Below, piece after piece: positions 22,649 through 40,997 of a stretch of DNA of 47,947 nucleotides. Position 1 is the first letter of the stretch. Every line of letters begins with the position of its first letter. The notes below the pieces were generated by a model that ran no database searches, was not told the origin of the DNA, and worked only from the letters and a program-made list of their open reading frames with translations. The translations under genes and the position numbers were made by a program. This DNA comes from Acidisoma silvae (GTDB lineage Bacteria > Pseudomonadota > Alphaproteobacteria > Acetobacterales > Acetobacteraceae), in assembly GCF_020618775.1 (NCBI RefSeq), contig NZ_JAESVB010000024.1, forward strand, positions 1 through 47,947. Reading direction: 5' to 3'.

Positions 22649-23878
22649 TTAGGACCCCGGTGCCGCTTTTGGTTCCGGTGATTGCCGCGCTTTGCTAATT
22701 TGCTGAGGCATTACCTGACCCTGGCGGGCGCTGAACTGGCCAATAAGGTAATTGGCCACGGCCGACAGTTCCTCGTCCGTATAGGCACCTGTAAAAGGAT
22801 GCATGAACATCAGCCCCTTGTCGGTTTCGATCTGGCTGCCGTTGGTCAGCACCTGCACGACGTTGTTGCCCGTCACGTCACCTGTGCTGTGCGACCCGCC
22901 AAGTGCCGCCCAAGGCGACTGCCGTCCTGTTCCATTCGGGAGATGGCAGCCCGCACAGGCGCGGATGAAGATATGCTCACCCAAAGCCGCCGTCGTGAGA
23001 GGGGTGATAGTCGCGGGCACGACCTCAGGTCCGTCATCCCGCGCTGGAACGGTGCGAAGGTAGGTAACGATCGCCGAGATGTCTTCCGGCTTGAGATATT
23101 GCAGGCTATCTTCAACGGCCTCAGCCATCGGGCCGGACGCAGGTCCATGGCCAGGAGCCTGGCCGGTCGACAGAAACTCTTTGAGCGATGCGTCTGACCA
23201 CGCGCCAATGCCGTGCACCGGGTCGCTGGTCAGATTGTAAGCGAGCCAACCCGCCTGGATGGCCCCTGCGAATTCCCGACTACTTTTCGCCTGCATGAAG
23301 TTGCGCGGCGTGTGGCATTCGGCGCAATGGCCAAGCGCCTCTACCAGATAGGCGCCTCTGTTCCATTCGGCTGATTTTGAAGAGTCCGGCTCAAACCGTG
23401 CATCCGGATTGTTGATGAGGTTCCAAAATACCATCAACCAACGCTGGTTGAACGGAAATCCAAAATTGTTGGGTTTCGTCGGCGCATGAACGGGAGGCAG
23501 GCTGAAAAGGTAGGCCTTGATCGCCCGCGCGTCGTCGTCGCTCATTTTGGTGTAGGAGGGATAAGGCATGGCCGGATACAGGTGCTGGCCTTCCCGGCCG
23601 ATGCCACGATGAAGCACCCGGAGAAACTGCGCGTCGGTATATTGCCCGATGCCGGTATCCTTATCCGGCGTAATATTGGGCGAGTACAGGTCGCCAAACG
23701 GCAGTTGGAACTGGCGCCCACCAGCAAAGGGCGTGCCGCCGGGCGCTGTATGACAGGCTTCGCAATCCGCCGCGCGCGTCAGGTATTGGCCTTGCTGGAC
23801 AAGGTCGGACGGTGACGCCGCCCAAGCGCCAAACGGCGAGGCTATCGTCAGCAATGAGGCGAGGAGGAAGAGTCTCAT
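22649..23878 (-). CDS. Triheme cytochrome c subunit of dehydrogenase
   Basis: The 409-residue protein has a signal peptide (MRLFLLASLLTIASPFGAWA) and three c-type heme sites: CEACH at residues 39-43, CAECH near 190 and CAGCH near 325. This is the layout of the cytochrome subunits of membrane-bound alcohol and aldehyde dehydrogenases of acetic acid bacteria (AdhB and AldG types), which pass electrons to ubiquinone in the periplasm. Each domain shows the usual distal Met segments (PAMPYPSYTKM for the first). The ATG at 23878 overlaps the stop of the Mo subunit gene (ATGA). It completes a 2Fe-2S, Mo, cytochrome operon. It is intact although its partner is frameshifted. Confidence 0.88.
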   Translation of the reverse strand: MRLFLLASLLTIASPFGAWAASPSDLVQQGQYLTRAADCEACHTAPGGTPFAGGRQFQLPFGDLYSPNITPDKDTGIGQYTDAQFLRVLHRGIGREGQHLYPAMPYPSYTKMSDDDARAIKAYLFSLPPVHAPTKPNNFGFPFNQRWLMVFWNLINNPDARFEPDSSKSAEWNRGAYLVEALGHCAECHTPRNFMQAKSSREFAGAIQAGWLAYNLTSDPVHGIGAWSDASLKEFLSTGQAPGHGPASGPMAEAVEDSLQYLKPEDISAIVTYLRTVPARDDGPEVVPATITPLTTAALGEHIFIRACAGCHLPNGTGRQSPWAALGGSHSTGDVTGNNVVQVLTNGSQIETDKGLMFMHPFTGAYTDEELSAVANYLIGQFSARQGQVMPQQISKARQSPEPKAAPGS

Positions 23879-26062
23879 GACGACACCAGCTGGCCAGTGC
23901 CAAAGGGTATGCGGCGAAGCCGCTTTCCGGTGGCGGCACATATCGCGTTCGCCAGCGCCGGAGCCGCTGCGACCGTTCCGGTTTCCCCAATGCCGCCAAT
24001 CTCACCCTCGGGGTTGTGGACGATATGCACCTCGACTTTCGGTGCCTCGTCGATGCGCAGGATCCGGTAATCGTGGAAGTTGCTCTGATCAACGCGGCCA
24101 TTGGTCAGGGTAATCTCGCTGTAGAGCGCCATGCTGAGGCCGAAGATGAGGCCGCCCTGGACTTGCGCCGCCAAAGTGTCGGGGTTGACGACCGGGCCGC
24201 AATCAACCGCAACATCTGCTTTGATGAGTTGCACCTCATTGTCGCTGCCGACTTCGATCTCCAGCACCGTCGCCATATAGGTCTGGAAGGCAAATTGGAG
24301 CGCGATACCACGCCCTCGACCGGCGGGAAGTTTTTCGTTCCAATTCGACTTTTCGGCTGCAAGGTCCAGAACCGCCAACGCGCGGGGATTTTTCGTCAGA
24401 AGTTTCCGGCGAAAGGTTATGGGATCCTGTTTCGCGGCTGCCGCCAATTCATCCATGAAGCTTTCGATGACGAAGACATTGTGGGTGGGTCCCACGCCGC
24501 GCCACCAGAGCGCTTGGCTCCGACCGGACCCAGGCGACCTGATGCGCCGGGAACTCATAGGGCGTGTCCGCTGACCCCTCGACCGTGTCGGGGTCAAGCT
24601 TGCCACCCTCCGCCATCCCGGGCGGAGCCCATCTCGCCATGACCGATGACCCGGTGGTGCGGTGGGACCAGCCCGTCACATTGCCGGAGGCATCGAGACC
24701 TGCCGAGACCTTGTCATAATAGTAAGGCCGGTAGAGGTCGTGCTGAATGTCCTCCTCGCGCGTCCAGATAAGCTTGACCGGGTAAGGGACATGTTTGGCG
24801 ATGCGCGCGGCCTGGGTCACGCTGTCGACATCGAGACGGCGCCCGAAAGCTCCGCCCATGAACTGATTGTAGACTTTGACGCTTTCCTGCGGCAGCCCGG
24901 TTTCCTTCGCGACCGTCATCTGGGCACGAACCGGCACCTGGGTGCCGACCCAAACGTCGGCGCCATCAGGACGAACGTGAATAGTGGTGTTGATGGGCTC
25001 CATTGGGGCATGAGCCAGGAAGGGGAGCTGGTAGACGGCATCCAGCTTCGTCGCCGCCCCCTTTATTGCCCCATCGGCATCGCCGAGCTTCTTCGCAATG
25101 AAACCGTCCTGCTCAGAATCCCGCGCAAGATGGGCGATCAGGCTTTGCGTGTCGGCATGGGCATTTGGACCGTCATCCCAGACGGGATTCGCCGCCTGCA
25201 GGCCTTTCATCGCGGCCCACATATGGTCGCCGATCACGGCAACGACGTCGTCTAGCTGGACCACATCGCGGACGCCAGTAACCGCCCGTGCGGCTTTCTC
25301 ATCAATCCTGACCAGCTTGCCCCCCAGCACGGGGCTTGCAGCCACCGTGCCGATCTTCATGCCAGGAACCTGGATGTCCATGCCGTAGATGGACGTACCG
25401 TTGACCTTCGCCGGTGTGTCGATTCGGCGCGGCGAGGTGCCAATCAGTTTGAATTCTGACGCCGGTTTGAGCGCGACATGCGTCGGCAAGGGCTGCTTGG
25501 CGGCATCGTTTGCGAGGTCGCCATAGCTGAGGGTCTGCCCGGCCGGACCATGAACGGCGGCCCGTTCAGCCTTACAGGTCGAGGGATCGACCTGCCACTT
25601 TGCCGCAGCGGCGCCGATGAGCATCATGCGGGCGGCGGCTCCCGCCTCCCGCAGCGGCTTCCAACTCCCGCGAATGGAGGCAGAGCCACCAGTCGCCTGC
25701 TCGCCCAGAAGAGGGTCCGTGTAAAGCCTGAGGTTGGGCGGAGCCGCTTCGACCTCGATCTGGTCCATACCGACCTCGAGCTCCTCGGCGAGGAGTGTCG
25801 AGGCGCCAGTATAAATCCCCTGGCCGCACTCCGTATTGCGCATGATGAAGGTAATGACCCCCTTGGGGTCGATCCGGATGAAAGCATTTGGCTCGAAATC
25901 GCCGTCGAAATCCGGCGGCGGCATCGGGGTAGCGCGGGTCAAAAACTGGGCAGCGCTGGCCGTGGCGTTGAGGTGCAGCCCGATCAGGAGACCGCCTCCT
26001 GCCGCAAGGCTTGCCTTGAGCAGGCCACGGCGTGACAGCGTCTTGGGCGCCAACGCGTTCAT
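23875..26062 (-). pseudogene. Tat-exported Mo subunit of aldehyde/IorB-type dehydrogenase, frameshifted
   Basis: Two frames together encode one large Mo subunit of the IorB/AldH type, about 728 residues. The first part starts at 26062 with a Tat signal (SRRGLLKASLAAGGGLLIGL) and contains FIMRNTECGQGIYTGASTLL and YNQFMGGAFGRRLDVDSV, ending AWVRSEPSALV. The second part continues from LWWRGVGPTHNVFVIESFMD to GGIGETGTVAAAPALANAI, which has the catalytic Glu, and stops at 23875. The break is at about 24505-24520; the span leaves one extra base relative to a whole number of codons. Without correction both halves are useless, so this is either a recent inactivation or a sequencing error. The 2Fe-2S gene stop and this ATG are one base apart (TGAGATG), and it overlaps the cytochrome gene. 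Confidence 0.85.
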
Positions 26063-26063
26063 C

Positions 26064-26516
26064 TCAGGCCTCCGCCGCTGCGTGAATGGCCGCCCGGATG
26101 CGGACATAGGTCGCACACCGGCAAATATTTCCAGCCATCGCCACGTCGATATCAGCGTCCGTCGGCTTTGGCGTCGCGTCGAGCAGCGCGGTCGCGGCCA
26201 TGATCTGCCCAGACTGGCAATAGCCACACTGGACAACCTCATGATTGAGCCAGGCTCTCTGGATCTTGGCGCCGCTCGGCGTCTCGCCTACGGCCTCGAT
26301 GGTCGTGATCGGCTGGCCAGCCACGCTCGATGCCGGAAGCAAGCAGGAGCGGACAGCATTGCCGCCCACATGGACCGTGCAGGCGCCGCATTGGGCAATT
26401 CCACAACCGAACTTCGTGCCTGTCATACCCAGGACATCGCGCAATACCCAAAGCAACGGCATGTCGGGCGGGACGTCAACCTGATGAGCCTGGCCGTTGA
26501 TCAGAAGCTGAAACAT
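26064..26516 (-). CDS. 2Fe-2S subunit of aldehyde/IorA-type dehydrogenase
   Basis: The 150-residue small subunit carries two [2Fe-2S] clusters. Ligands: the plant-type set in [17 protein letters not shown] plus the downstream Cys of VRSCLLPA, and the second set in CGYCQSG and NICRCATY. It begins [20 protein letters not shown], normal for IorA/AldF-like subunits, which enter the periplasm bound to the Tat-signalled large subunit. It is first in the operon with the Mo and cytochrome c genes. The 210-bp region upstream should contain the promoter. Confidence 0.88.
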
Positions 26517-26727: not shown

Positions 26728-27571
26728 TCATGCTTTGTGGACAGCAGCTGACAGGGTTCCAGCGGCGGCAAGCAGAACCACAACAGTCCAAGGGGGCGCT
26801 TTCCAAACCGTGAGGAGTAGGAAACCAGCCGTCGCAAGCCCAACGTCTTCCGGCGTGACGACGGCATTGACCCACACTGGACTGTAGAGTGCAGCGCCAA
26901 GAATACCGACCACGGCCGCGTTTGCGCCGCGCATCACGTTTGTGTGGTTGGACGTGAGCGCAGCTTGTCCCAAAACGGCAACATTCCATGCACAAGGAGC
27001 AAGCCCGGCAAAAATATTGCGACAAGCGCGACAATTGCCCCGGCGATCCCATTGGGTTGATGAGTCGTGGCCGCGCCTAGATAAGCGGCAAATGTAAAGA
27101 GTGGGCCCGGCATAGCTTGAGCAAATCCATATTCGGTTAAAAAGGCATAGTTTGTCACCCAGCCGGATTCAACAACCGCAGAATGGAGCAAGGGTAGAAC
27201 GACATGACCTTCATGAAAAACCAGCGCACCGGAACGGTAAAATGCGTCGAAGAAAGACAGCACCTGAATGTCATTCGCGGACGATAGAAATGGCACAATC
27301 ACGAAACAGCAAAAAACAAACCAAGAGCGAGGCCACCGCCCTGCCGCGAAACCGGAAATTTCAGTTGACCTGCCGCGGGAGCCACACCGTCGCGACACAA
27401 GTAAGATCCGGCCAAGGCTCCACAGACTATGGCGGCTATTTGGCCGAAGGCACTGTCAAATGTGACAACAATTGCTATGGCCACCAGCGCAATCCCGGCA
27501 CGGGTGCGGTCCGGCGTATCGCTGCGCGCCATGCCCCAGACAGCTTGTGCGACCACAGCAACTGCCACGAG
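26728..27571 (-). pseudogene. chrA: Chromate transporter ChrA, 3' remnant
   Basis: Three frames together encode the middle and end of a ChrA/CHR-family membrane transporter. The first, from about 27571, reads VAVAVVAQAVWGMARSDTP and GQIAAIVCGALAGSYLC and ends by 27299. The second reads SFFDAFYRSGALVFHEGHVV, EYGFAQAMPGPLFTFAAYLG and LVAIFLPGLLLVHGMLPFWD. The third reads GANAAVVGILGAALYSPVW. Two frameshifts separate them. The 5' third of the gene is missing, cut at the end of the IS3-derived mini-element at 27572. A functional product is not expected. Confidence 0.85.
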
Positions 27572-28089: not shown

Positions 28090-28920
28090 TTAAGCAGATG
28101 ATAATCGGACGTGAGAGGCCAGACTGGAGCAGACGCGCATCCAACGAATGGCATCCAAAATGGTGTCCGTTCTGAAGCCAACCGTTAGCGCGCTGCGGCG
28201 TTCGGAAACTGGTATTGTTGCACAAATGTCAGCTAAGAAGGCGCTGGTAAGGTCGAACTCAATATCGCAGGGCTCGGCTATCCGATAAGGTTTAATTTGA
28301 TCTGATTCTTTGACTGCTTTGTCGGCCGCCGCGCGAATAAGCGATTGTGCAGCCTTGGGCGATAAAGCCCGCGCGGCCCGCTGACCTAAAGCATATTTCA
28401 CACAGGCGAATTGGGCTGCGGGGAAAAGGCTACCGCAGGTACGCTCCGTCACATCATCACCCGAGAGCATGATGATGGGCACGCCCATGGCACCCGCATA
28501 GGCGCCATAGATCATGGCCTCCGACGCAGCTACCCCGTTTAATCGGATGGCCGCAAAGGCAAAGTCGCTCGTTGTATGCGCGAGAACGCCAAAATCGGCA
28601 GCGCCCGCATGGTAGCCGAGGCAGATGACACCAGAGTAAGTGTGGTCCAGGCCTGCAAACATGCCTGCGTGCTTAATATTACCACGGATCAGTTCAGCGC
28701 GCGGATCGAGCAGATCGGGCAGGATATTGGTCATAGGACCGTGGCTATCATTAACCAGAACTTCGGTCGCACCACCGGCGAAGGCACCCGCAATGGCGGC
28801 ATTCGCCTCCATCGTCATCAGCCGGCGTGCTTCTTCGTATTCGACATTGCCCGGTCGCTGATGCTGCGGAATGACGACGCCAGCAACGCCCTCGATGTCG
28901 GCTGAAATGTAGATTTTCAT
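28090..28920 (-). CDS. M55 family D-aminopeptidase, paralogue 2
   Basis: The 276-residue zinc peptidase resembles Bacillus DppA, which removes D-amino acids from the N-terminus of short peptides such as D-Ala-D-Ala. Zinc ligand positions of DppA are kept: Asp8 and Glu10 (SADIEG), His60 (NDSHGP), His104 (LGYHAG) and a Glu at 134 (AASEAM, 133 in DppA). The active-site His115 (VLAHTT) is also present. It is the last gene of an eight-gene peptide transport operon, 24 bases after its paralogue. The C-terminus differs from paralogue 1, and Ser/Thr changes near the active site may shift specificity. It is probably cytoplasmic; DppA forms a decamer. Confidence 0.92.
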   Translation of the reverse strand: MKIYISADIEGVAGVVIPQHQRPGNVEYEEARRLMTMEANAAIAGAFAGGATEVLVNDSHGPMTNILPDLLDPRAELIRGNIKHAGMFAGLDHTYSGVICLGYHAGAADFGVLAHTTSDFAFAAIRLNGVAASEAMIYGAYAGAMGVPIIMLSGDDVTERTCGSLFPAAQFACVKYALGQRAARALSPKAAQSLIRAAADKAVKESDQIKPYRIAEPCDIEFDLTSAFLADICATIPVSERRSALTVGFRTDTILDAIRWMRVCSSLASHVRLSSA

Positions 28921-28944
28921 GCATGCAATTCCAGAGCGATGGTG

Positions 28945-29763
28945 TCAGGACAAATGGCTACCGAGCATGCAGCACACAGCCACCCAACGGTTTGCGTCGC
29001 TGACGGTCTCTGCTGTGAAGCCAACCGTTAGGGCCGAACGGCGCTGAGCTAGGGGAATAGTTTCACAGAGGTCGGCTAGGACAGCACTCGTTAAGTCCAG
29101 TTCAAGTGTGCATGGCTCGGAGACCGTAAAGGGCTTGATGTGGGCTACCTGGCGAACCGCACGTTCGGCCGCATTTTGGATACGTGTCCGCGCCATTTGT
29201 GGAGAGAGCGCTTTCGCTGCCCGCTGCCCCAAGGCGGTTTTCACGGTGACGATTTCGGCGCCTGGAAACAAGGTGCCGCAGCTGCGCGCTGTCACGTCGT
29301 CACCGGACAGAAGAATAACCGGCACGCCCATGGCACCTGCATAAGCACCGAAAAGCATTGCTTCGGATGCGACGAGGCCATTCAACCGGACAGCGCTGAA
29401 ATCCCTCGTGCTATAAGTATGGGCCAAGACACCATAGTCGGCCGCCACCGCGTGATAGCCGACGCACATCACGCCAGCGTAGGTATCATCAAGCCCTGCG
29501 AACATGCTGCCAGGCTTAATCTGGCCACGGATGAGTTCCGCCCGTTGATCCAGCAGATCTGGGATGAGATTGACCATCGGACCATGACTGTCATTGACCA
29601 ACACTTCGCTCGCGCCGCCAGCAAAGGCACCAGCGATCGCCGCATTCGCCTCTTCCGTCATCAGGCGGCGGGAATCCTCGTATTCCAAATTTCCGGGCTG
29701 CCCCTGCTTTGGAACGACAACCCCGGCCACGCCCTCGATATCAACGGAAATGAAGATCTTCAT
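28945..29763 (-). CDS. M55 family D-aminopeptidase, paralogue 1
   Basis: The 272-residue paralogue of the next gene has the same DppA-type ligands: Asp8/Glu10 (SVDIEG), His60 (NDSHGP), His104 (VGYHAV), His115 (VLAHTY) and Glu134 (VASEAM). The two proteins are clearly similar over their full length, so they arose by tandem duplication, perhaps to widen substrate range or form mixed oligomers. It starts 29 bases after the C69 dipeptidase gene. It likely trims D-residues from peptides imported by the upstream ABC transporter. Confidence 0.92.
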   Translation of the reverse strand: MKIFISVDIEGVAGVVVPKQGQPGNLEYEDSRRLMTEEANAAIAGAFAGGASEVLVNDSHGPMVNLIPDLLDQRAELIRGQIKPGSMFAGLDDTYAGVMCVGYHAVAADYGVLAHTYSTRDFSAVRLNGLVASEAMLFGAYAGAMGVPVILLSGDDVTARSCGTLFPGAEIVTVKTALGQRAAKALSPQMARTRIQNAAERAVRQVAHIKPFTVSEPCTLELDLTSAVLADLCETIPLAQRRSALTVGFTAETVSDANRWVAVCCMLGSHLS

Positions 29764-29792
29764 GAGAGAACGTCCTCTTACGTCGTAGACGA

Positions 29793-31079
29793 TTACAGAG
29801 CGAGCGAGGCTTCGTCGTTAAATCGCTGCCACATCGCGGCATAACCAGTGTGGCTAAAGCCGTAGCTTTTAGCTTCCAATCTTTCGATCCACCGCTCTGT
29901 CGCAAGCGTTGCCGTCTGCCAACTCCAGGCGACGTAGTCTTGCTTTAGCCTTTCGGACGCAGTCCGCGCAGATGCGGCTTCAGCATGAAATTGGCGCTCC
30001 AAAGCATCGAACTCATTTCGGATTTCTGGCTTGATAGCCTTGTAATGTGCCATTGCCCGGCGATGCAGACGTTCGTGCCGCCACCACAGGGTCTCGGCGG
30101 TATCGGTGCCGCTCGGCTGCAGGCCGACCTCCGGCAAAGGAATGCCAAAAAAGAGCGGCTTGAAGATCGACAGATCGGTAGCAGAGGTTCCTGTCATCCA
30201 AACGACGACGCTATCGGGCCGTGTCTCGGCGATCATGGCACCTGTCGCGTGCCAAAAGCGAGATGGTGTCGGGCCTGCGTGCATGCATACGCGCACAGAG
30301 CGCTCATCCATGGTGACGTCATAAGCGTCTTCATCGCCGACATCGCGCAACACGGCCGCCATGTCATGCATTGTGATCCGACCGCGCTTCCCGGCCAGAA
30401 GCCCCGCCGCACAGCTTTCACGCTCGTTCGCCCCGGCATCGTGTTCCTTCTTCGGATCGGCAAACATTGCGCGGAAATCCGCCTTCGGACCAATAGCGGG
30501 TAAGGACGAGAGATCCCAATCTGTCGTGATCTGATAGCGGTTCAAGATCGCCTCGGTGCTTTTCGCACGTCGTGCCGCCCAATGCTTGCCGGCGCAATTC
30601 ACGACCCACGCCTCAGTCCTATCGGATATAAGAAAGCCACTGTCGAACCTGAAATTGCCCATCATCTGGACATTTCCGCCCTGGCCGTAGGCCTCGACAT
30701 GTGCACCGATGACATTGACGGCTTCGAGTGCCGTCGCTCCGCGCTCCAGCCCCAGACGCAACAGGTCGAGAATAATGACGCCATCCTTCTCGGCGCTTTG
30801 GTTACTGAAAGCGGCCTCATTGCCGATGGCGACGCCGTGCTCGTTACAGCCGATTTCTCCTCCCCATGCCCAGAAAGAGCGGTCCAAAATCACTTCGTGC
30901 GTGTGACGCGCTTGGGGGATGGTCAGATGGCTGACGCGAACAGCCGCACCGGTGCCATAGTTTCGGGCGGGGAAATGCAGGATCTGCTGGGCCTCATTCA
31001 CCTCCGTATCGGCGTTCTTCGCGAGGAGCATTGCGCCGTCGGCGGTTGTCTCGGGTAACGCGACGATCGTGTCACACAT
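29793..31079 (-). CDS. C69-family (secernin-like) dipeptidase
   Basis: The 428-residue N-terminal nucleophile hydrolase belongs to the peptidase C69/secernin group. Cys2 immediately follows the initiator Met (MCDTIVALPETTADGAMLLA) and becomes the N-terminal nucleophile without a propeptide. The family segments AKNADTEVNEAQQILHFPAR and GGEIGCNEHGVAIGNEAAFS are present. Family members cleave dipeptides or small amides. It lies 23 bases after the ATPase gene and just before the two M55 genes, so imported peptides would meet C69 and D-aminopeptidase activity together. The substrate is inferred from neighbours, not shown. Confidence 0.85.
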   Translation of the reverse strand: MCDTIVALPETTADGAMLLAKNADTEVNEAQQILHFPARNYGTGAAVRVSHLTIPQARHTHEVILDRSFWAWGGEIGCNEHGVAIGNEAAFSNQSAEKDGVIILDLLRLGLERGATALEAVNVIGAHVEAYGQGGNVQMMGNFRFDSGFLISDRTEAWVVNCAGKHWAARRAKSTEAILNRYQITTDWDLSSLPAIGPKADFRAMFADPKKEHDAGANERESCAAGLLAGKRGRITMHDMAAVLRDVGDEDAYDVTMDERSVRVCMHAGPTPSRFWHATGAMIAETRPDSVVVWMTGTSATDLSIFKPLFFGIPLPEVGLQPSGTDTAETLWWRHERLHRRAMAHYKAIKPEIRNEFDALERQFHAEAASARTASERLKQDYVAWSWQTATLATERWIERLEAKSYGFSHTGYAAMWQRFNDEASLAL

Positions 31080-31102
31080 GGCGCGCTTTTCCTGTCTTGG
31101 CC

Positions 31103-32110
31103 CTATTGAAGCTGAGCGTTCATTGTCTCAGCCGCGAAGTGGCAGGCGGCCCAACGACCACCTGGCAGCGTCACGCGCGGCGGCGATGTCTCGCACATCC
31201 CTTGCGCGTCCGGACAACGGGTGCGGAACGGACAACCGGATGGAGGGTTGACCGGGCTAGGCGGTTCGCCGGCGAGCGGCGTCTCGTCGCTCTGCGCCAA
31301 GGTAGGGTCAGCGCGTGGGATGGAGGCCAGAAGCGCCCGCGTATAGGGATGGGCGGGTCGCGCGAAGACCTGTGAGGTCGGACCGTTCTCGACCATGGTG
31401 CCGAGATACATCACGCCCACCGTCTCGCACAGATATTCGATGACGCCGAGATCGTGCGAGATGAACAGCAAGGTCAGACCCAGATCTCGTCTCAGATCAT
31501 CCAGCAAATTGAGCACCTGGGCGCGGACCGAGACGTCGAGGCCGGAGACTGCCTCATCCGCCACCAAAAGCTTCGGCCGCACCGATAACGCGCGCGCAAT
31601 ACCCACGCGCTGGCGCTGTCCGCCGGAAAGCTCTGACGGATAACGGCCGGCGGCGGACGACGGCAGACCGACCCGCTCCAACAGGCGCGCAACCTCATGC
31701 TCCACTTGATCGGCCGGCACGATACCGTGCAGGCGAAGCGGCTCGGCAATCGCCCGCCCAATGCGCATACGCGGGTTGAGCGAAGAATAGGGATCCTGGA
31801 AGACCATCTGCATCTGGCGACGCAAAGCGCGGCGGGTGGCAGGATCGACCTTGGTCACATCCTGCCCGTCAAACCGAATGGCGCCGTCGTCGACGGGGAG
31901 CAGACCAAGCACCAGGCGGCCGAGCGTCGTCTTGCCGCAACCGGACTCGCCCACCAGCCCGAAGCTTTCACCGCGTGCGACGGTAAAGGTCACGCCCTGC
32001 GCTGCCTGCACCCAGTGCTGTGGCTGGCCCATAAAGCCCGCGACCAGAGATCGGCGCAGTGGAAAGTATTTATCCAGTCCAATGACCGATAGAAGCGGTT
32101 GCTCAGCCAT
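31103..32110 (-). CDS. Peptide ABC transporter ATPase (DppF-like)
   Basis: The 335-residue ATPase drives import of oligopeptides. It has Walker A GESGCGKTTLG, the signature LSGGQRQRVGIARAL, Walker B LLVADEAVSGLDV and the C-terminal oligopeptide domain with CPFRTRCPDAQGMCE, whose Cys cluster is typical of DppF/OppF. The ATG at 32110 is preceded by GGAGG and overlaps the end of the partner ATPase gene by 8 bases; the frame upstream to 32314 lies inside that gene and is not used. It is the fifth gene of the operon. Confidence 0.9.
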   Translation of the reverse strand: MAEQPLLSVIGLDKYFPLRRSLVAGFMGQPQHWVQAAQGVTFTVARGESFGLVGESGCGKTTLGRLVLGLLPVDDGAIRFDGQDVTKVDPATRRALRRQMQMVFQDPYSSLNPRMRIGRAIAEPLRLHGIVPADQVEHEVARLLERVGLPSSAAGRYPSELSGGQRQRVGIARALSVRPKLLVADEAVSGLDVSVRAQVLNLLDDLRRDLGLTLLFISHDLGVIEYLCETVGVMYLGTMVENGPTSQVFARPAHPYTRALLASIPRADPTLAQSDETPLAGEPPSPVNPPSGCPFRTRCPDAQGMCETSPPRVTLPGGRWAACHFAAETMNAQLQ

Positions 32111-33098
32111 GGGGGACCTCCGCATGAGCGCGAGCGGGATGAAAACAAGCGAAGCCGCCACCACCTGCATCGGGCGTCCAGCCCGGTGCCACCGCCTCAC
32201 AATCGGTCTGCCGGTTCGGGCAGCGGGCTGCGAAGCTACAGCCTGACGGGCGGTGCGCCGGATCGGGCGGCATCCCCGCAATGGGATGCAGCGGGTGACC
32301 GGCGCGTGAGCCACGCGGAATCGAGTTGAGCAGGGCGACGGTGTAAGGGTGGCGCGGATTCTCGAAGATGCGGCGGATAGGCGCTTCCTCTACGATACGG
32401 CCTGAATACATCACGGCCACGCGGTCACAGGTTTGCGCGACGACACCCAGATCATGCGTGACAAGGACCAGTGCCATCCCGAGGCGCGAACGGAGGTCGG
32501 ACAGCAGGCGCAAAATCTGCGCCTGGATCGTCACGTCAAGCGCGGTCGTCGGCTCGTCAGCCAAAAGCAGGCGCGGGGAGGCAATCAGCGCAATGGCTAT
32601 GGCGGCGCGTTGTCTTTGGCCGCCTGACAATTCGTGCGGATAGGACGCCGCGATGCGTGCGGGGTCCGGAAGACCGACAAGGCGCATAGCTTCCAGCATG
32701 CGGGCATGACGGTCTGCCGCAGACAACTGGCCGTGGTAGCGCAAGCCTTCGGCAATCTGGCGGCCGACGGTAAGGACAGGATTGAGGGCGGTCAGCGGGT
32801 CCTGAAACACCATGCCGATGCCGGCACCTCGGATCGATTGCAGCGCGCTTTCTTTGGCCTGGGCCAGGTCCACACCATCAAAGCGGACCGCCCCCCGGGT
32901 AATGCGCGCCTTGCCTGTCAGCAACCGGATGATGGCGCGGATCGTAGTGCTTTTACCACAGCCGGATTCGCCCACGATGCCGTAGCTCTCGCCGGCGCGG
33001 ACGGTGAAGGAGACATCCTCGACCAGCGCCACAGTGTTGCTGCCTCGTGGAATGCCGATGCCGAGATGATCGACGGTCAGAAGATCAACCATGCTCAA
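32103..33098 (-). CDS. Peptide ABC transporter ATPase (DppD-like)
   Basis: This 331-residue ATPase partners the next gene. It has Walker A GESGCGKSTT, signature LSGGQRQRAAIAIAL and Walker B LLLADEPTTALDV, with the C-terminal segment CSFAARCPNRQTDCEAVAPG carrying Cys residues as in DppD/OppD. Overlaps with both neighbours (ATGA with the permease) show translational coupling in a standard B-C-D-F order. Confidence 0.9.
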   Translation of the reverse strand: MSMVDLLTVDHLGIGIPRGSNTVALVEDVSFTVRAGESYGIVGESGCGKSTTIRAIIRLLTGKARITRGAVRFDGVDLAQAKESALQSIRGAGIGMVFQDPLTALNPVLTVGRQIAEGLRYHGQLSAADRHARMLEAMRLVGLPDPARIAASYPHELSGGQRQRAAIAIALIASPRLLLADEPTTALDVTIQAQILRLLSDLRSRLGMALVLVTHDLGVVAQTCDRVAVMYSGRIVEEAPIRRIFENPRHPYTVALLNSIPRGSRAGHPLHPIAGMPPDPAHRPSGCSFAARCPNRQTDCEAVAPGWTPDAGGGGFACFHPARAHAEVPHG

Positions 33099-33910
33099 GC
33101 GCGCCCCAGTTCTGGCCGCAAAGCATCGGCCAGCCCGTCACCCAGCAGGCTGAGTGAGACTGCGAGCAGCACGATGGCAAGGCCCGGAAACCCGCTGATC
33201 CAGGGTGCCTGGCTGACGAAACTATAGCCGTCCGCGATGATCAGCCCCCATTCAGGCAAGGGCGGTTGTGCGCCAAGACCGAGCCAGCCGAGCGAGCTGC
33301 CGAGGAAGATGTCCAGCACGGCGTCCGAGGTCGCGTAGACCGCGGCCTGGACGATGACATTGGGCAGGATGTGGTGGGCGAGGATCCGGGTATTCCCAAA
33401 GCCTAGCAGTCGCGCGGCCTGCACGTAATCCGCCTGTTTCACCACCAGAATTTCGGCGCGGGTGATGCGGGCGTAGCTGACCCAGCCGACCGCTGCGACC
33501 GCGATATACATGTTTTTGAGGCCGGGCCCGAGTACTGCCACGATAGCAATGACCGCGACAAAAAAGGGAAAGGCGACGGCGATATCGACCAGACGCATGG
33601 AAATGGCGTCGGTCAGTTTGCCGAAATAGCCGGCGACCAAGCCGACTGTGGTGCCGATGACGAAAGCAGGGACGACACAGAAGAGCGCGATTTGAAGATC
33701 CGTGCGGGTGCCATAGATGACGCGGGTGAACACGCCACGACCAAGGTTGTCTGTTCCGAACGGGAAGGCGAGGCTCGGCGGGTGCAATGAATGCATCAGG
33801 TCCATAGCTGTCGGGTCACCCGGCAGCAGCATGGGACCGAAGACTGCCACAAGCACCCAGCCCATCATCAGGCCAAGGCCCAGTTTAAGATTGCGCGGCC
33901 AATGCTTCAT
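33095..33910 (-). CDS. Peptide ABC transporter permease (DppC-like)
   Basis: The 271-residue inner-membrane permease has five or six membrane segments, an N-terminal single segment (LGLGLMMGWVLVAVFGPMLL) and a BPD_transp_1 domain with the EAA-like loop ADYVQAARLLGFGNTRILAH before HILPNVIVQ. FGTDNLGRGVFTRVIYGTR is the typical DppC segment after the first helix. It overlaps both neighbours by four bases. Confidence 0.9.
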   Translation of the reverse strand: MKHWPRNLKLGLGLMMGWVLVAVFGPMLLPGDPTAMDLMHSLHPPSLAFPFGTDNLGRGVFTRVIYGTRTDLQIALFCVVPAFVIGTTVGLVAGYFGKLTDAISMRLVDIAVAFPFFVAVIAIVAVLGPGLKNMYIAVAAVGWVSYARITRAEILVVKQADYVQAARLLGFGNTRILAHHILPNVIVQAAVYATSDAVLDIFLGSSLGWLGLGAQPPLPEWGLIIADGYSFVSQAPWISGFPGLAIVLLAVSLSLLGDGLADALRPELGRA

Positions 33911-34851
33911 CCGATCTCGCTCCGCCGCACGCGAGGATCAAGCATGATCTGGCCAAGATCAGTGATGAGATAAATCAGCACGACGATGATGCCAAACATC
34001 AGCGTGACCATCTGAATGGTGGGGTAATCCCTTGTGCCGATCGAACTGATCATGAGTTGACCGAGGCCCGGCACGGCGAAGACGTTTTCAACCAGCACGG
34101 TATTGCCGACCAGGAAACCGATATTCAGGCCGAGAACATGGAGCGCGGGTAGTATCGCGACGCGGAGCGCATGGCTGAGCAGGACAGCACGGGCGGGCAG
34201 TCCCTTGGCGCGCGCGGTATCGATAAAGCCAGCACCGAGCGCTTCGCCAAGACTTGTGCGCAGGGCGCGCATCACCAAGGGCGCGACATTCAATGCGCAA
34301 GTCAATGCTGGCAAAAAGAGGTTATAGAGCCGCGCGCCCCAGGTATTGCCGTAGCCAGCAATCGGAAAAAGATGAAAGGTCACGGACAGCAGAAGAATGA
34401 GGATGAAACCAGTCCAATAGCTGGGTAGGCCAAGGCCTGCCGTTGCCACCACGCGCAGAACATGATCGGCACCGCGCCCTTGTTGGGTTGCGGCTAAAAT
34501 GCCTGCTGGGATGGCAATGACGAGGGAGATAATGGTGCTGTAGAGGAGCAAGACTAGGGTCGGCACCATGCGGCCAAGTACAAGCTGTGCGACCGGTTGG
34601 CCATAGTAGTAAGAAATACCAAAATCGCCTTGTACCAGGCTTCTGAGATAAAGCAGATATTGCATACCGATACCGCGATCGAGCCCTAATCTGGCCCGGA
34701 CCGCGGCCATCAGAACCGGCGTTGCATGAATGCCCAAAATGGCCCTTGCCGGGTCACCTGGAATAAGCCTCACAAGAAGAAAAACCGCGAGGGTTATGCC
34801 AAGCGCCACCGGGATCATGAGCAATAGACGACGGACGATATAAGTCAGCAT
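33907..34851 (-). CDS. Peptide ABC transporter permease (DppB-like)
   Basis: The 314-residue permease begins YIVRRLLLMIPVALGITLAV, the standard DppB start, followed by FLLVRLIPGDPARAILG. The BPD domain has the EAA loop in FIDTARAKGLPARAVLLSHA and LRVAILPALHVLG. Six membrane segments are expected. It is separated from the binding-protein gene by about 120 bases, and ends overlapping the second permease gene. Confidence 0.9.
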   Translation of the reverse strand: MLTYIVRRLLLMIPVALGITLAVFLLVRLIPGDPARAILGIHATPVLMAAVRARLGLDRGIGMQYLLYLRSLVQGDFGISYYYGQPVAQLVLGRMVPTLVLLLYSTIISLVIAIPAGILAATQQGRGADHVLRVVATAGLGLPSYWTGFILILLLSVTFHLFPIAGYGNTWGARLYNLFLPALTCALNVAPLVMRALRTSLGEALGAGFIDTARAKGLPARAVLLSHALRVAILPALHVLGLNIGFLVGNTVLVENVFAVPGLGQLMISSIGTRDYPTIQMVTLMFGIIVVLIYLITDLGQIMLDPRVRRSEIG

Positions 34852-34972
34852 GCTTGCTGCCCTGCGCTTGTAAAGCGGACCGCTTTATCGCGACTGGAAC
34901 TCGTCATGCCCGCTTGCCGTCTAAGCGCGACAGCAAGCAGTTGAGCAAGGCCTTCTAAAAGCAACAACTTTC

Positions 34973-36556
34973 TCAGCTCTTCCAGACATCTTCCAACCAA
35001 TAATTGCCGGTCGGAAGCACTCGGAAGCCATGCACGTTATCGCGCATCGCGGTGATGGCGGGTGTCCAATAAAGCCAAAGGTAGGGTGCATCCGCGAAGA
35101 CCTGCCGCTGCATGTCCAGATAGATGCCGCGACGCTTGGCTTCATCAAGTTCGCCTAAGGCAGCAGTCGCCAATTGATCGACCTTCGGGTTGTTATAGAA
35201 CGTCCAGACAGAGTCGCTACCTTCATCGCCCGCTCCAGCGAAGGCGACAAGTTCACAAGGATCGAAGATATCACTGGTCATATAGCCTTGCGCCATCTCG
35301 TACTGGCCGGCACTCGTCTGAGCGAAGACCGTATTACCTTCTTCAGGCTGAATGCTGATTTTGATACCGAGCGGAAGAAGCATTTGCTGTACGATCTGAG
35401 CGACCTGGGCAAAGATAGTATCGCCGCTATTGATGAGACATTTTACGGTGAAGCCAGTCGGCATACTGCTTGCCGCCATCAGCTCCTTGGCCTTAGCAAG
35501 ATCGTAAGGGTAGGGCTTGTCCGTCACATCAGCCATAAACATTTTTGGAAGGAATGTCGTTGGCACTTCGCCATAGCCGAACAAAACCGCCTTGATGATA
35601 GCTTCCTTGTCGACGGCATAGTTGATGGCCTGCCTAATCTTCACATCCTGGAATACTGGCAGCTTTTCATTGAATTGGATCCAGTCGATGCGAGTATACG
35701 GCACGATTTGTATATCGAGGCCGGACGCATGCTTGAGCTTGTCCACTTGATTAAACGGCACCTGGGTGCCGATGTCGATTTCTCCCGACTGAGCCTTAAG
35801 CATGCGGACGTTGTCGTCTGCGACGATAGATAGAACCACACCATCCAAATAGGGGCGGTTGGGATCCCAGAAATGCGGATTCCGGCCGAATGTGACGCTG
35901 TCGCCCTTCTTCCACTCGGTGAGCAAGAACGGACCAGAGCCGATCGGCTTATCGGCAAATACATTCACGCCAACCTTGTTGAAATAGGCCTTTGGCACAA
36001 TCGCTGCGCCGTGCAGCGAGGCAGCTGCTAAAAAGGGCGCCCAATCCTGCTGCAACTTGAAAATGATGGTATGCACATCCGGCGTTTCCATCGTCAGCTT
36101 CGGAAAGAGGGAGCCCCACGGCGAATCCTTGTCGTATACCGTTCTGCCGAAGGAGAAGGCCACATCTTCGGAGGTTACCGGCGTACCGTCAGAGAAGGTC
36201 GCTTTTGGATTGAGATGAAACGTATAGGTGCGCTTATCGTCCGATATATCCCAGCTGGTAGCTAGATCGGGCACGACGCCATCGCCAGACGGATTGGTGC
36301 GGACAAGCAACTGGAAGATAAGCAATTTTGCCCAGATCGACATGTTGTCGGATGGGACAACGGGCTCGAACGACACGACATCCGCGATCCGCGCCATTGT
36401 GAGGATGCCACCTCGTTTAGGAGTATCATCGGCGCGCGCTATTGGGCTGAGGCCTACACTTGCCAAAGTTGTCGCGGCTAAGCCAAGCGCAGAACTTTGT
36501 AGCAGTCGGCGACGGGAGAGTGCCATCGGTCGTGAGAAGCCATTGAAATACGTCAT
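34973..36556 (-). CDS. Peptide-binding protein of ABC transporter, family 5, Tat signal
   Basis: The 527-residue extracytoplasmic solute-binding protein is of the SBP_bac_5 (DppA/OppA) type. A Tat signal (ALSRRRLLQSSALGLAATTL, ending IARAD) indicates export of a folded protein. Family segments include GILTMARIADVVSFEPVVPS, TYTFHLNPKATFSDGTPVTS and SGPFLLTEWKKGD. The ATG at 36556 has GAGGA nine bases before it; the open frame continues upstream to 36691 but without a ribosome site. It is first in the operon and divergent from the XRE-cupin regulator. It selects the peptide to be imported; the sequence does not tell which. Confidence 0.9.
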   Translation of the reverse strand: MTYFNGFSRPMALSRRRLLQSSALGLAATTLASVGLSPIARADDTPKRGGILTMARIADVVSFEPVVPSDNMSIWAKLLIFQLLVRTNPSGDGVVPDLATSWDISDDKRTYTFHLNPKATFSDGTPVTSEDVAFSFGRTVYDKDSPWGSLFPKLTMETPDVHTIIFKLQQDWAPFLAAASLHGAAIVPKAYFNKVGVNVFADKPIGSGPFLLTEWKKGDSVTFGRNPHFWDPNRPYLDGVVLSIVADDNVRMLKAQSGEIDIGTQVPFNQVDKLKHASGLDIQIVPYTRIDWIQFNEKLPVFQDVKIRQAINYAVDKEAIIKAVLFGYGEVPTTFLPKMFMADVTDKPYPYDLAKAKELMAASSMPTGFTVKCLINSGDTIFAQVAQIVQQMLLPLGIKISIQPEEGNTVFAQTSAGQYEMAQGYMTSDIFDPCELVAFAGAGDEGSDSVWTFYNNPKVDQLATAALGELDEAKRRGIYLDMQRQVFADAPYLWLYWTPAITAMRDNVHGFRVLPTGNYWLEDVWKS

Positions 36557-36654
36557 GGGCTTTGTCCTCGCAATGCAAAATGGGACGCCAGTGGTATGCG
36601 ATGCAGATGCGTCGAAACAATTCTGTGGCCAATTCCGAACCGCGGAGAAGTTTC

Positions 36655-36678
36655 TGTCAAGAAAATTTGTTTTTGACA
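36655..36678. promoter_or_regulatory. Imperfect palindrome in divergent promoter region
   Basis: TGTCAA (36655-36660) and TTGACA (36673-36678) are inverted around a 12-base AT-rich spacer, and 9 of 12 half-site positions match. It lies about 100 bp before the peptide-binding protein gene. It could be an operator for the XRE-cupin regulator, or -35 elements on both strands. Confidence 0.35.
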
Positions 36679-36928
36679 AAAATTTCATCACACTGATCGA
36701 GACTCAGGCAAAGAAAGAGAGATCGGGAATAAGGAAGACCAGCCATTTTTAGATCTTAGCGGAAAATTATGAGTAGAATCTAAGCACATCGTCGCAAGCC
36801 CGCGGTTTTGGTATTAATGAGTTGACCGTGCTCAATCGTTGAAATCAGGTGCCGGATATGTTTTCTACCTAGAAAGATGCTAGCGGCCATTTGAGACGGC
36901 CGTTCATTTATCTCTCGAGGAATGCCTT

Positions 36929-37537
36929 ATGTCGGTGTCCACACTGACCGAGACCATCGGCCGAACCCTAGCGGAGCTCCGACTGAGCCGCGGCTGGACT
37001 TTGAAGAAGCTCAGTGAGGCGACGGGCGTCAGCGTCCCAGTGTTGTCTAAGATCGAAAACAATCAGACCGGCATTTCTTTTGAGACAGCGATGAAGATTA
37101 TGGGGTCGCTTTCACTTTCTTTGGATGACCTCACGGCAGAGAAGCCTGAGCTTCCGCACATAAGCGGCCGGCGGGCGGTAAACCCTGCCGGATCCGCTTT
37201 AACGATCCCTTCAATGGGCCGCAGTTACGAATTATTTGCGACCGAACTTCGCCAAAAGCGAATGGTGCCGATGATCACGACCGTTAATAACCACAGCGCC
37301 GAAGAATGGGGCCCATTCAGCCGTCATGACGGCGAAGAATGGATGTATGTGTTGGACGGCAGCATCGAGTTACACACTGAGTTGTATGCGCCCCTGGTGA
37401 TGAAACAAGGAGATAGCGTGTACATTGACTCAGGCATGGGTCATGCAATGGTCGCGCTCAGCGAGTTACCAGCGCGCGTTCTTTCGGTTTATGCTGGTGC
37501 AGGCGAGCCCTTTGGCACGCCGAACTCTGACAAATAG
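36929..37537 (+). CDS. XRE-cupin transcriptional regulator
   Basis: The 202-residue regulator has an N-terminal HTH_3/XRE domain (LRLSRGWTLKKLSEATGVSV, PVLSKIENNQTGISF, residues 17-50) and a C-terminal cupin (PFSRHDGEEWMYVLDGSIEL with GDSVYIDSGMGHAMVALSEL, residues about 126-190). Members often sense amino acids or their products. A ribosome site AGGAA precedes the ATG. It is divergent from the peptide transport/peptidase operon, the usual place for its regulator. His and Glu residues in the cupin motifs suggest that metal binding is possible. Confidence 0.88.
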   Translation: MSVSTLTETIGRTLAELRLSRGWTLKKLSEATGVSVPVLSKIENNQTGISFETAMKIMGSLSLSLDDLTAEKPELPHISGRRAVNPAGSALTIPSMGRSYELFATELRQKRMVPMITTVNNHSAEEWGPFSRHDGEEWMYVLDGSIELHTELYAPLVMKQGDSVYIDSGMGHAMVALSELPARVLSVYAGAGEPFGTPNSDK

Positions 37538-38678: not shown

Positions 38679-39605
38679 TTATTGCCAAACCTCAGTGTCT
38701 CTGCTGATCGCGCGTGCGAATAGAGCTATCTCAGGTAGGAAACCCAGTTCGGATGTTGGGATATAGGATACTGAGTATTCAAGCGGACTGATACTGGGGC
38801 GCTCAGACAAAACCTTCATGGTCTTCGCTTCGATCCCTTCTTTGAACAGACCAGGCGGCAACAGGCTTACGCCCACCCCCTTGCGAACAAGGGAAGCGAC
38901 AACGCTGACATTCCCGCAATAGCTGATACGTCGTGGCCGCACCCCGGCGTTCCGGAACCAGTTCTGCATGACGGAAGACACGCTGGCATCGTCAGGCGAT
39001 GCAATGATGGGGACATCCACCAGATCCGACGGTTCGATCGTGTTGTCACTTGCCATCAAATTCGGATGAGACATCCAACTCAGCGGGTAGGAACCGAGAG
39101 ATTGAGTGATCGCCTCGGGCAGCACGACAGGACCAGGAAGAAGTGCGATGTCTACACGTCGCGCTGCGAGTTTTTTGACGAGACGAGCGGAGAGATCTAC
39201 ATCCAATTCAACACTGATGGCCGGATATCGGTTGCCGACGCGTTCCAGCAATTTGTCCAGCCACGTGAGGGCGATGACCTCACTCACGCCCACGCGCATG
39301 GTGCCGCTGACACCCAGATCCTGGGCCGCTGCAGCTTTCAGCGCCGCAAAGTCAGCGACCATACGTTCAGCAACCTGAAGGCAGCGCCGGCCGCTTAATG
39401 TCAAGACCACCTGTGCTTTTTCTCGCCGAAACAGGGCAGAGCCTAGTTCCTGCTCCAATTCATTGATGCGCCGCGTGATCGCAGGTTGCGTCAGCCGAAG
39501 ATGCCGGGCAGCCGCGCTGAAGCTTCCCAAACGGGTGATCCACAGAAGGGTTTCCAGGCTACGAATGTTCACGGCATACCATAACAAAGACGCATGACCA
39601 TCCAT
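38679..39605 (-). CDS. LysR-type regulator, divergent from M24 operon
   Basis: The 308-residue LTTR has the winged HTH at its N-terminus (SLETLLWITRLGSFSAAARH, LRLTQPAITRRINELEQELG) and a periplasmic-protein-like effector domain (GTMRVGVSEVIALTWLDKLL, GVGVSLLPPGLF). The start at ATG 39605 is chosen because the longer frame to 39698 adds a hydrophobic tail unlike LTTRs; a GTG a few codons later is an alternative. It is divergent from the M24/ABC operon and probably activates it. Confidence 0.88.
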   Translation of the reverse strand: MDGHASLLWYAVNIRSLETLLWITRLGSFSAAARHLRLTQPAITRRINELEQELGSALFRREKAQVVLTLSGRRCLQVAERMVADFAALKAAAAQDLGVSGTMRVGVSEVIALTWLDKLLERVGNRYPAISVELDVDLSARLVKKLAARRVDIALLPGPVVLPEAITQSLGSYPLSWMSHPNLMASDNTIEPSDLVDVPIIASPDDASVSSVMQNWFRNAGVRPRRISYCGNVSVVASLVRKGVGVSLLPPGLFKEGIEAKTMKVLSERPSISPLEYSVSYIPTSELGFLPEIALFARAISRDTEVWQ

Positions 39606-39664
39606 GAACCGATTTTTCTTGTCAATGAGAATAATATTGACGCAAGATACAGACGCTAGACGCG

Positions 39665-39677
39665 ATATTTCGAATAT
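39665..39677. promoter_or_regulatory. Candidate LysR binding site
   Basis: ATATTTCGAATAT is a short dyad (ATATT-TCG-AATAT) with T-N11-A type spacing in the divergent LysR/M24 region. Only its position and symmetry support this. Confidence 0.35.
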
Positions 39678-39806
39678 AGTTAAATATATCAAATTCAATT
39701 ACAGTACATTCAACGCGCTTCTAAAACATTAAGAGCATAATATTTAGTTTTAACGTGAATGCCGCCGTCTTTCGGCAGGCCTTTTCAAATCTAAAAAGGG
39801 TCGGCG

Positions 39807-40937
39807 ATGAAACCTTCCGCGCGTGATCTCATGAATGTCGATCGCATGGCGGCTCAGATGGATGCCCGTGGCGTCGATGCCGTTGTCGCCCGCGCAGGGA
39901 TCAATCTGGCCTATCTGGCGGGCTTCGCTTTCCCGGGAACCCTTGCCCGCCATGTCGATCTCGTCGACTCACCGCGCGCGGTCTATCTTGTCTGGCCGCG
40001 AACCGGTGAGCCTAGGATTATTGCGAACACCATCGCTGCCCCTCTCGCCCAACGGGACTCATGGATCGAGGCCTTCGATCTTTATGAAGGCTATCGAGAG
40101 AAGCCGGTCGAGGCCTTGATTAAGACCCTGACTGCGATGGGTCTGCGCAGCGCCACTGTTGCTTTCGAGACCGAGTATACCAATGCCGCGGACTGGGAGA
40201 GCCTGCGCACACAACTGCCGCGTATGCAGATGGTCGACTCATCAGAGCTTATGGAGCAGGTGCGTGCAATCAAGACCCCGGCCGAGATTGCGCGCTTACG
40301 CGAAGGGGCGCGCGTGCTCGACCACGCTTTCCTGAAGCATTTTGCGACCGCGCGGCCCGGCATGCGAGAGCGGGACCTTCATGGTGCCATCGTGGCGGAA
40401 TGCATCGCGGGCGGCTCAGAATTCACCCATGGCATTCTGAATTCATCGCGCAATACCCTGCCTTATGGCGGCGAGAGCGATTTTGTGTTTCAGGCCGGTG
40501 ATGCCATCCGGACCGATTACGTGGCTTACTTCAAAGGCTATCCGGGCCATCAGTCGCGCTGCGCCGTCATTGGTCAGCCGACTCCTGAGCAGACCCGCGA
40601 CTATCACGTGATCCGCGACATCTATCGCGCGGTGAATGAGCAGCTGTTGCCGGGACGTACCGCCGGAGAGATTTATCAGTTTGCCAAGGATCAGTTTGCG
40701 GCGGCGGGCACGTCCTATTCCAGCATCATAGCGGGCCACAGTGTCGGTTGTTGGTGGCATCAGCAGGAACCTGTTATCGCGCGCGGCAATCCGAGACGTC
40801 TGGAGAGTGGCATGGTGATTGCCATGGAACCCTTCGTGAACCACTGGCATATACAGGACATGTTGTTGATCACGGATCACGGGCCGGAACTGCTATCTCC
40901 TGACTTCAATACGGATGAGATCTTCGCCTGCGGCTGA
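39807..40937 (+). CDS. M24-fold hydrolase with altered active site
   Basis: The 376-residue protein has the two-domain creatinase/Xaa-Pro peptidase (M24) layout: an N-terminal Creatinase_N domain (MDARGVDAVVARAGINLAYL) and a pita-bread domain from about residue 165 (RAIKTPAEIARLREGARVLD). Three usual active-site positions are changed: the catalytic His of the N-x-L-P-H site is Tyr (SSRNTLPYGG), the second metal Asp of GYxSDxTR is His (GYPGHQSR), and the last Glu of TEDG is Asp (ITDHG). Asp of IRTDYV, His of AGHSVG and Glu of MEPFV remain. This suggests a metal-independent or altered enzyme, as with creatinase and ectoine hydrolase in this fold. It is first of a five-gene operon with a polar amino-acid ABC transporter. 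Confidence 0.85.
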   Translation: MKPSARDLMNVDRMAAQMDARGVDAVVARAGINLAYLAGFAFPGTLARHVDLVDSPRAVYLVWPRTGEPRIIANTIAAPLAQRDSWIEAFDLYEGYREKPVEALIKTLTAMGLRSATVAFETEYTNAADWESLRTQLPRMQMVDSSELMEQVRAIKTPAEIARLREGARVLDHAFLKHFATARPGMRERDLHGAIVAECIAGGSEFTHGILNSSRNTLPYGGESDFVFQAGDAIRTDYVAYFKGYPGHQSRCAVIGQPTPEQTRDYHVIRDIYRAVNEQLLPGRTAGEIYQFAKDQFAAAGTSYSSIIAGHSVGCWWHQQEPVIARGNPRRLESGMVIAMEPFVNHWHIQDMLLITDHGPELLSPDFNTDEIFACG

Positions 40938-40997
40938 TCAACCGTCCAACCCCATTACCAAATAAACCGCTTCTTAGCCCCAGGGAGAGACATCGCC

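Follow-up and report, generated by a model that had tools for sequence, protein, structure and literature searches.

Enzymes of peptidase family M55 encoded together with a peptide importer are an established arrangement, and one that is widespread on plasmids. The example used for comparison here is the dpp gene order of Bacillus subtilis, in which an M55 enzyme, DppA, is encoded with a Dpp-type ATP-binding cassette (ABC) importer. The ddpXABCDF operon of Escherichia coli joins import of D-Ala-D-Ala with intracellular hydrolysis of D,D-dipeptides by DdpX, a VanX-type peptidase that is neither M55 nor C69. Passages of one published account describe DppA as a D-stereospecific self-compartmentalizing aminopeptidase (PMC2651629). 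Here we analyse eight co-directional minus-strand genes of Acidisoma silvae, at 28,090-36,556 of the window, by which we mean the whole stretch of DNA analysed, namely all 47,947 bp of contig C24 in a genome of 5,436,125 bp and 82 contigs. Together with a divergent regulator gene, the eight genes are read, at somewhat better than an even chance, as a regulated cassette for the catabolism of peptides that contain D-residues. Like B. subtilis dpp, the operon encodes an M55 enzyme with a Dpp-type ABC importer; unlike it, the window has two ATPases, an XRE-cupin regulator, an added C69-like hydrolase and, last in the operon at its 3′-end, two M55 genes in tandem.

How does this unit compare with M55 genes on other plasmids? 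A tblastn search with the first of the two M55 proteins gave 128 plasmid records, six of which, five annotated and the sixth without annotation, were inspected by hand. Genes for an isoaspartyl peptidase and for an importer occur in all five annotated regions; a P1 peptidase is encoded in four, a D-amino acid transaminase in two, and in one there are the DgcN/DgcA genes of a D-Glu pathway to which passages of PMC10845958 refer. The set of P1 peptidase, isoaspartyl peptidase and importer was found, again by tblastn, at four of 17 other M55 loci that do not belong to Acidisoma. Such plasmid clusters of M55, Gsi-like importer and isoaspartyl peptidase genes (Azospirillum, Paracoccus, Thalassospira, Enterobacter, Agrobacterium) use the same M55 family in the same logic, but have one long GsiA-type ATPase gene where the window has separate D and F ATPases, a P1 and an isoaspartyl peptidase where it has a C69-like enzyme and a second M55, and MurR/RpiR or LysR regulators nearby where it has an XRE-cupin protein. 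A third relative is the AapF importer of the PipR plant-responsive system of Pseudomonas: among proteins of solved structure, AapF is the closest to the binding protein of the window, and the partner enzymes and regulator, as far as passages on that system name them, differ from those found here. What sets the window apart is the C69-like enzyme in the place of P1, the tandem M55 genes, the separate ATPases, and the XRE-cupin protein with its likely operator. Among the titles listed from an open-licence library of papers, none was on an M55/C69 operon.

The operon, its regulator and its relatives

A preliminary description of this DNA took the eight adjacent genes as one unit, and all eight are indeed present with Pfam matches. 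In the order of transcription they encode a substrate-binding protein (SBP; SBP_bac_5, 311.8 bits) with a twin-arginine-type leader (34973-36556, ATG start at 36556), permease B (33907-34851; BPD_transp_1 with an N-terminal domain), permease C (33095-33910; BPD_transp_1), ATPase D (32103-33098, starting with TTG at 33098 or ATG at 33092) and ATPase F (31103-32110), both of them ABC_tran with oligo_HPY, then a secernin-like hydrolase of the N-terminal nucleophile (Ntn) type with Cys2 (29793-31079), assigned from a weak Peptidase_C69 match, an alignment and a PDB profile match, and finally two Peptidase_M55 enzymes, M55a (28945-29763) and its tandem paralogue M55b (28090-28920), assigned as D-aminopeptidases from Pfam, alignment with DppA and a tree. 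The true start of ATPase F is probably ATG 32110, to which sequence and conservation point, and not that of the listed open reading frame 31103-32314. As read from the sequence, 121 bp separate the SBP gene from that of permease B; the B/C junction is an ATGA overlap and the C/D junction a TTGA overlap, D and F overlap by 8 bp given the above start of F, and gaps of 23, 29 and 24 bp precede the C69-like gene, M55a and M55b, respectively. The overlaps and short gaps described earlier therefore hold at all junctions except the one after the SBP gene. Values of dN/dS are about 0.03-0.08 across the seven operon genes compared, the SBP gene being left out of this test; the ATPase F query, used both here and in the search for relatives, was in the correct frame and began one codon ahead of the ATG. 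At the operon, a sigma-70 promoter scan called nothing and terminator-like sites did not exceed the chance level.

The eight-gene order is a non-random arrangement, because A. cellulosilyticum has the same eight genes with their divergent regulator, its proteins being 80-96% identical to those of the window; the full order is thus found in that species, and variant orders in two other Acidisoma. When the window is aligned with the DNA fetched from A. cellulosilyticum, similarity extends over 28108-37531, that is, over the operon and the regulator, and no farther except at an HU-family gene located elsewhere in the window; judged from this alignment, the operon and its divergent XRE-cupin regulator are a discrete cassette. 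Below, G000 denotes the window genome, G001 to G004 the other Acidisoma genomes, and L numbers fetched loci. The window and G003 have the regulator and then SBP-B-C-D-F-C69-M55a-M55b; G002 has SBP-B-C-D-F-DadA-C69-M55 without the regulator; G001 has the regulator and SBP-B-C-D-F-DadA-amidase-M55, with an amidase in place of the C69-like enzyme. No M55 and no C69-like gene was found in G004, where the importer was not searched for. Across the compared loci, the importer is constant and the finishing enzymes vary. The DadA-like flavoenzyme in the G002 operon belongs to the DAO family (210 bits), that of the G001 operon is 71% identical to it, and a 63% identical homologue lies elsewhere in the window genome. 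In both the window genome and G003, DadA-like (63-65%) and amidase (75-78%) homologues stand together elsewhere, beside another SBP importer. This pair (7436-10147 of L103, from contig C6 of G000; 7354-10055 of L104, from contig C1 of G003) is homologous to the pair in the G001 operon, and looks like a case of enzyme-module shuffling.

The divergent regulator (36929-37537, plus strand; HTH_3 and Cupin_2 by Pfam), which was absent from the preliminary description, belongs to the operon unit, and it adjoins the operon also at L010/L078, L076 and L012. The window holds two exact copies of the dyad TTTCTN4AGAAA, both between the regulator and the SBP gene, against a mean of 0.01 in shuffles: predicted operator O1, TTTCTACCTAGAAA (36862-36875), upstream of the regulator, and predicted operator O2, TTTCTGTCAAGAAA (36651-36664), whose minus strand holds TTGACA, a -35-like hexamer. 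A dyad pair between regulator and operon is found also at L010/L078 and L076, which makes three species in all, and two copies occurred in none of 20,000 random sequences for each of three regions. In G002, no regulator homologue was found at E<=1e-20 and no exact copy of the dyad in the draft genome; exact copies number 5 in G000, 8 in G003, 4 in G001, 1 in G004 and 0 in G002, and those of a reversed control pattern 1, 1, 1, 1 and 3 in the same order. It is probable, from these patterns, that TTTCTN4AGAAA is the operator of the XRE-cupin regulator. As the SBP-proximal dyad includes TTGACA on the coding strand, it is fair to suppose that repression would be exerted there by promoter overlap.

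The M55 pair and the C69-like hydrolase

Both M55 proteins match Pfam Peptidase_M55 over the full length (306.2 and 306.4 bits; gathering cut-off 25), and M55a and M55b, which are identical at 184 of 276 aligned positions (67%), align to DppA (1hi9) near full length with E values of 2e-41 and 1.9e-42. The residues aligned with D8, E10, H60, H104, H115 and E133 of DppA, which we take to be its metal ligands and catalytic His, are kept in all 22 M55 rows, both window proteins carrying D8, E10, H60, H104, H115 and, as the counterpart of E133, E134. Thus, the presence of two M55 D-aminopeptidases, as claimed before, agrees well with these matches and active-site residues; the window genome has no M55 genes other than these two. 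In a tree of M55 sequences, the six Acidisoma proteins form one clade (support 100/100), within which window M55b groups with its G003 counterpart and window M55a with its G003 counterpart and the G002 protein, both subgroups being supported; the placement of G001 is not settled by the tree. From this grouping, the tandem pair is read as a duplication within Acidisoma, of which both copies are kept in two species. Between the window and L010, M55a has a dN/dS of 0.04 and M55b one of 0.08, values that are approximate with synonymous sites near saturation.

In the C69-like protein, the Pfam Peptidase_C69 match (35.9 bits; gathering cut-off 23) covers only the N-terminal 172 of 428 residues. Ntn hydrolases expose an N-terminal Cys, and this protein begins with MCDT, its Cys2, presumably the nucleophile, being invariant in all five aligned sequences. 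A profile of the protein matches the solved dipeptidase 5iau, which we take to be of the C69 family, over positions 2-194 with E 2.4e-5, and a single-sequence search gave no 5iau match. The protein is 87% identical in A. cellulosilyticum HW T5.17 and 76% identical in Acidisoma sp. L85, and a second, more distant C69-like gene lies on contig C9 of the window genome. There are also weak signs of other families, namely a match of 23.3 bits to a C45 acyltransferase/hydrolase model with a cut-off of 85, and matches to Pfam AAT (cut-off 23.2) that score 27.3 bits in the relative at L012 and 21.9 bits in that at L013. These would fit a detoxifying amidase directed at peptide antibiotics or beta-lactam-like amides, in an operon that is protective and not nutritional, but none of the nine cassette genes matches an efflux or resistance family in Pfam, and to import a compound before destroying it is costly; we hold this explanation to be very improbable.

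What company do C69-like genes keep elsewhere? In 21 other contexts, the second copy of the window genome and the one in G231 being set apart, a family-5 SBP homologue (23-28% identity) lies within about 5 kb in six, four of them within 2 kb; an M81-type homologue lies about 4.8 kb away in three, all from one family; and in ten nothing but the C69-like gene matched the reference set in the fetched stretch. Of the more distant C69-like genes, only that of G231 (L061) has a full importer beside it. The use of distant C69-like genes as importer markers was rejected, although not cleanly, on the counts of six contexts near a family-5 SBP and ten without a match. Because of the six contexts with an SBP and the three with an M81-type homologue, there is a hint that C69-like enzymes often accompany solute uptake. 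The M81-type peptidase homologues are at L063, L064 and L067, from one family, and another is on a Thioclava plasmid (L013); in Thioclava a gene annotated as amidase adjoins the C69-like gene.

Substrate, alternatives and a proposed mechanism

The importer set is complete and encoded in one direction, with SBP_bac_5, two BPD_transp_1 and two ABC_tran/oligo_HPY proteins of the Dpp/Opp, PepT-type, and by gene content it would be a Dpp/Opp-type importer for di- or oligopeptides. The SBP leader, MTYFNGFSRPMALSRRRLLQ, is of the twin-arginine type, with SRRRLL in the window, L010 and L011 and RRRLL in all four aligned sequences; this agrees with the twin-arginine consensus and predicts export by the twin-arginine translocation (Tat) route. 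What the subunits match are generic models of transporters for dipeptides, oligopeptides and nickel, and all matches listed, which for the ATPases are the best 25 of 185-187, stay below the curated cut-off. Such generic matches, and the presence on this plasmid, some 2 kb past the regulator, of an M24 peptidase with a polar amino-acid importer, would also suit a general operon for scavenging L-peptides, in which the M55 enzymes serve for occasional D-residues or for cell-wall recycling. We consider this quite unlikely, the M55 and DadA-like enzymes being recurrent partners in Acidisoma and the duplicated M55 pair being under purifying selection.

The SBP itself opens another possibility. Its nearest solved chain is AapF (7kz8; E 2.5e-83, 283.7 bits), the next one scoring 183.5 bits, and the ligand of AapF is given, in passages of PMC11168924 and PMC10134790, as HEHEAA, an ethanolamine-derived amide. 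Might the importer then carry an ethanolamine-type or plant-related amide, which the C69-like enzyme, or the amidase of G001, would cleave, a DAO flavoenzyme oxidising the released N-substituted glycine and the M55 enzymes being accessory? The amidase that replaces the C69-like enzyme in G001, the amidase-annotated neighbour in Thioclava and the six C69-like contexts with an SBP speak for it, as does decaying wood, named in passages of PMC8537097 as the source of A. silvae. However, a close homologue of AapF is stated not to bind HEHEAA in what PMC10134790 reports on it, so that inference from the nearest relative is weak; the enzymes mentioned in passages on the PipR system are an Ala aminopeptidase and a proline iminopeptidase, and not M55; and retention of two M55 copies would stay unexplained. 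We regard such an amide pathway as unlikely.

What favours the D-peptide reading is the M55 chemistry, the DadA-like partner, the presence of D-amino acid genes in the cognate clusters, and the finding that C69-like and M55 genes co-occur at the level of genomes. Among 385 genomes of the class, 18 have a C69-like match at E<=1e-10, which is strong in 15 and scores 44-53 bits in the remainder; M55 reaches E<=1e-3 in 19 and passes the cut-off in 16, one of these 16 being a 43-position piece. Seven genomes have both, a single-contig pair occurring, among those listed, only in the window genome. Among 259 genomes of the family, C69-like genes are in 21, M55 in 35 and both in 15, with one-contig pairs only in three Acidisoma; many of the genomes surveyed are drafts, and presence and adjacency may be undercounted. 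Pairing of C69 and M55 as a general rule was rejected on these counts, incomplete as they may be. M55 is found in 15 of the 21 C69-positive family genomes and 20 of the 238 others, and, when genera are counted, in 6 of 11 with C69 and 8 of the 91 others (Fisher p=7e-4).

Several points weigh against this reading. Neither the genome nor the genus counts of co-occurrence are phylogenetically independent, and C69 scoring took, per genome, the best four (class) or best six (family) first-look candidates. Importer and C69-like enzyme can go without M55, since L012, which by contig coordinates is the place of G601, has the regulator and SBP-B-C-D-F-C69 with no M55, and G231, of another family, has C69-SBP-B-C-D-F with no M55 match. 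The SBP scores 144 bits with DppA and 89 bits with a murein-peptide binding protein, these and OppA all ranking below AapF. Scores with curated NCBIfam models stay under the cut-off for the M55 proteins (194.7 and 194.3 bits with the Bacillus equivalog D-aminopeptidase DppA; cut-off 430), for the G002 flavoenzyme (140.8 bits with its best match, D-amino acid dehydrogenase; cut-off 383) and for the C69-like protein (43.4 bits with the C69 family dipeptidase equivalog; cut-off 250). The former name "C69 dipeptidase" thus retains the weak family match but loses the dipeptidase, and C69-like Ntn hydrolase seems the better term. Finally, L012 has a 59% identical regulator and yet no exact dyad copy upstream, so that its operator may differ in sequence. 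As for the scavenging of D-peptides proposed earlier, the operon-like uptake-and-degradation unit and the DadA-like enzyme in the operons of two relatives favour it, whereas a D-peptide or peptidoglycan substrate is made less certain by an SBP nearest to AapF and by a C69-like protein that scores below the dipeptidase model.

The proposal for a D-peptide cassette builds on sequence, that is, on gene content and order, active-site conservation, purifying selection, plasmid location, and the absence of the dyads where the regulator is absent; from these we infer the substrate, the binding of regulator to operator and its direction, the location of the enzymes, and the C69-like step. The exported SBP would capture a small peptide or amide, which the B/C/D/F machinery would import. 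The two M55 enzymes, in the cytosol, would release N-terminal D-residues of the D-Ala type, and the C69-like hydrolase would probably open an amide or peptide bond beyond the reach of M55. Oxidation of the D-amino acids released could fall to DadA-like flavoenzymes, whose genes lie inside the operon in two relatives and outside it in the window genome. The XRE-cupin protein would bind TTTCTN4AGAAA twice and repress the operon and itself until an inducer derived from the substrate is sensed.

Plasmid location and meaning of the cassette

The contig encodes a RepA_C replication protein (738-1706, plus strand; Pfam), followed on the minus strand by ParB (1917-2981) and ParA (2981-4210). The RepA protein shares 90% identity with its counterpart on a circular plasmid (204,534 bp) of Acidisoma sp. 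PAMC 29798, where the RepA, ParB and ParA genes stand in the same order. Thus, it is well supported by these genes that the contig is a plasmid replicon, and that the operon is plasmid-borne as first described; a niche advantage from this location, also suggested at first, would be conjecture. Closing the contig as a circle was tried and rejected, no exact terminal overlap of 10-399 bases being found; the contig may therefore be an incomplete plasmid sequence. This RepA_C protein has 2-10 matches in each of the five Acidisoma genomes, mostly on separate contigs, which suggests several plasmids per strain.

Elsewhere on this plasmid, at 39807-44015 (plus strand), a gene for an M24 (Xaa-Pro/creatinase-like) peptidase precedes those of an ABC importer for polar amino acids, which consists of an SBP_bac_3 protein, two permeases and an ATPase. 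Together they are a second uptake-and-hydrolysis unit, beside a LysR regulator at 38679-39698. A chromate-transporter match at 26934-27398 (minus strand; a 154-aa frame covering Pfam positions 2-104 of 166) may be what is left of a gene close to where the cassette ends. Farther on, a molybdopterin-binding oxidoreductase gene is apparently split over two minus-strand frames (24449-26242 and 23875-24606) and adjoins a 2Fe-2S subunit gene, the whole stretch being 23875-26516; a second oxidoreductase set with longer open frames is at 17526-21369. The plasmid also has a gene for an HU-family DNA-binding protein (13655-13924, minus strand) and a 134-aa frame that matches the transposase family HTH_Tnp_1 (6708-7112, plus strand). 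HU-gene-like DNA is present in 3-7 copies per Acidisoma genome, one of them directly downstream of M55b in G003. No Rfam family was matched in the window.

Here, we have gone through a unit that is real, well organised and conserved; its earlier interpretation is plausible and partly strengthened, and its biochemical core is what we infer. It would represent a portable cassette for the catabolism of D-peptides (or of an amide), carried on different Acidisoma replicons, in which one finishing enzyme can stand in for another and which has a likely operator of its own. What, then, does the C69-like enzyme do? The substrates of the human C69 secernins are termed elusive in passages of a review (PMC9140057). 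One tentative idea, on the unlikely side, makes it an Ntn hydrolase of the secernin type that has a definite natural substrate, either an amide or a peptide with a D-residue or a gamma linkage, which would be brought in by AapF-like import and finished by two M55 enzymes of divided specificity. If so, the cassette would be a handle on secernin chemistry. A bacterial C69-like enzyme that goes with a single importer and a single regulator offers a genetic route to a substrate of its enzyme class.

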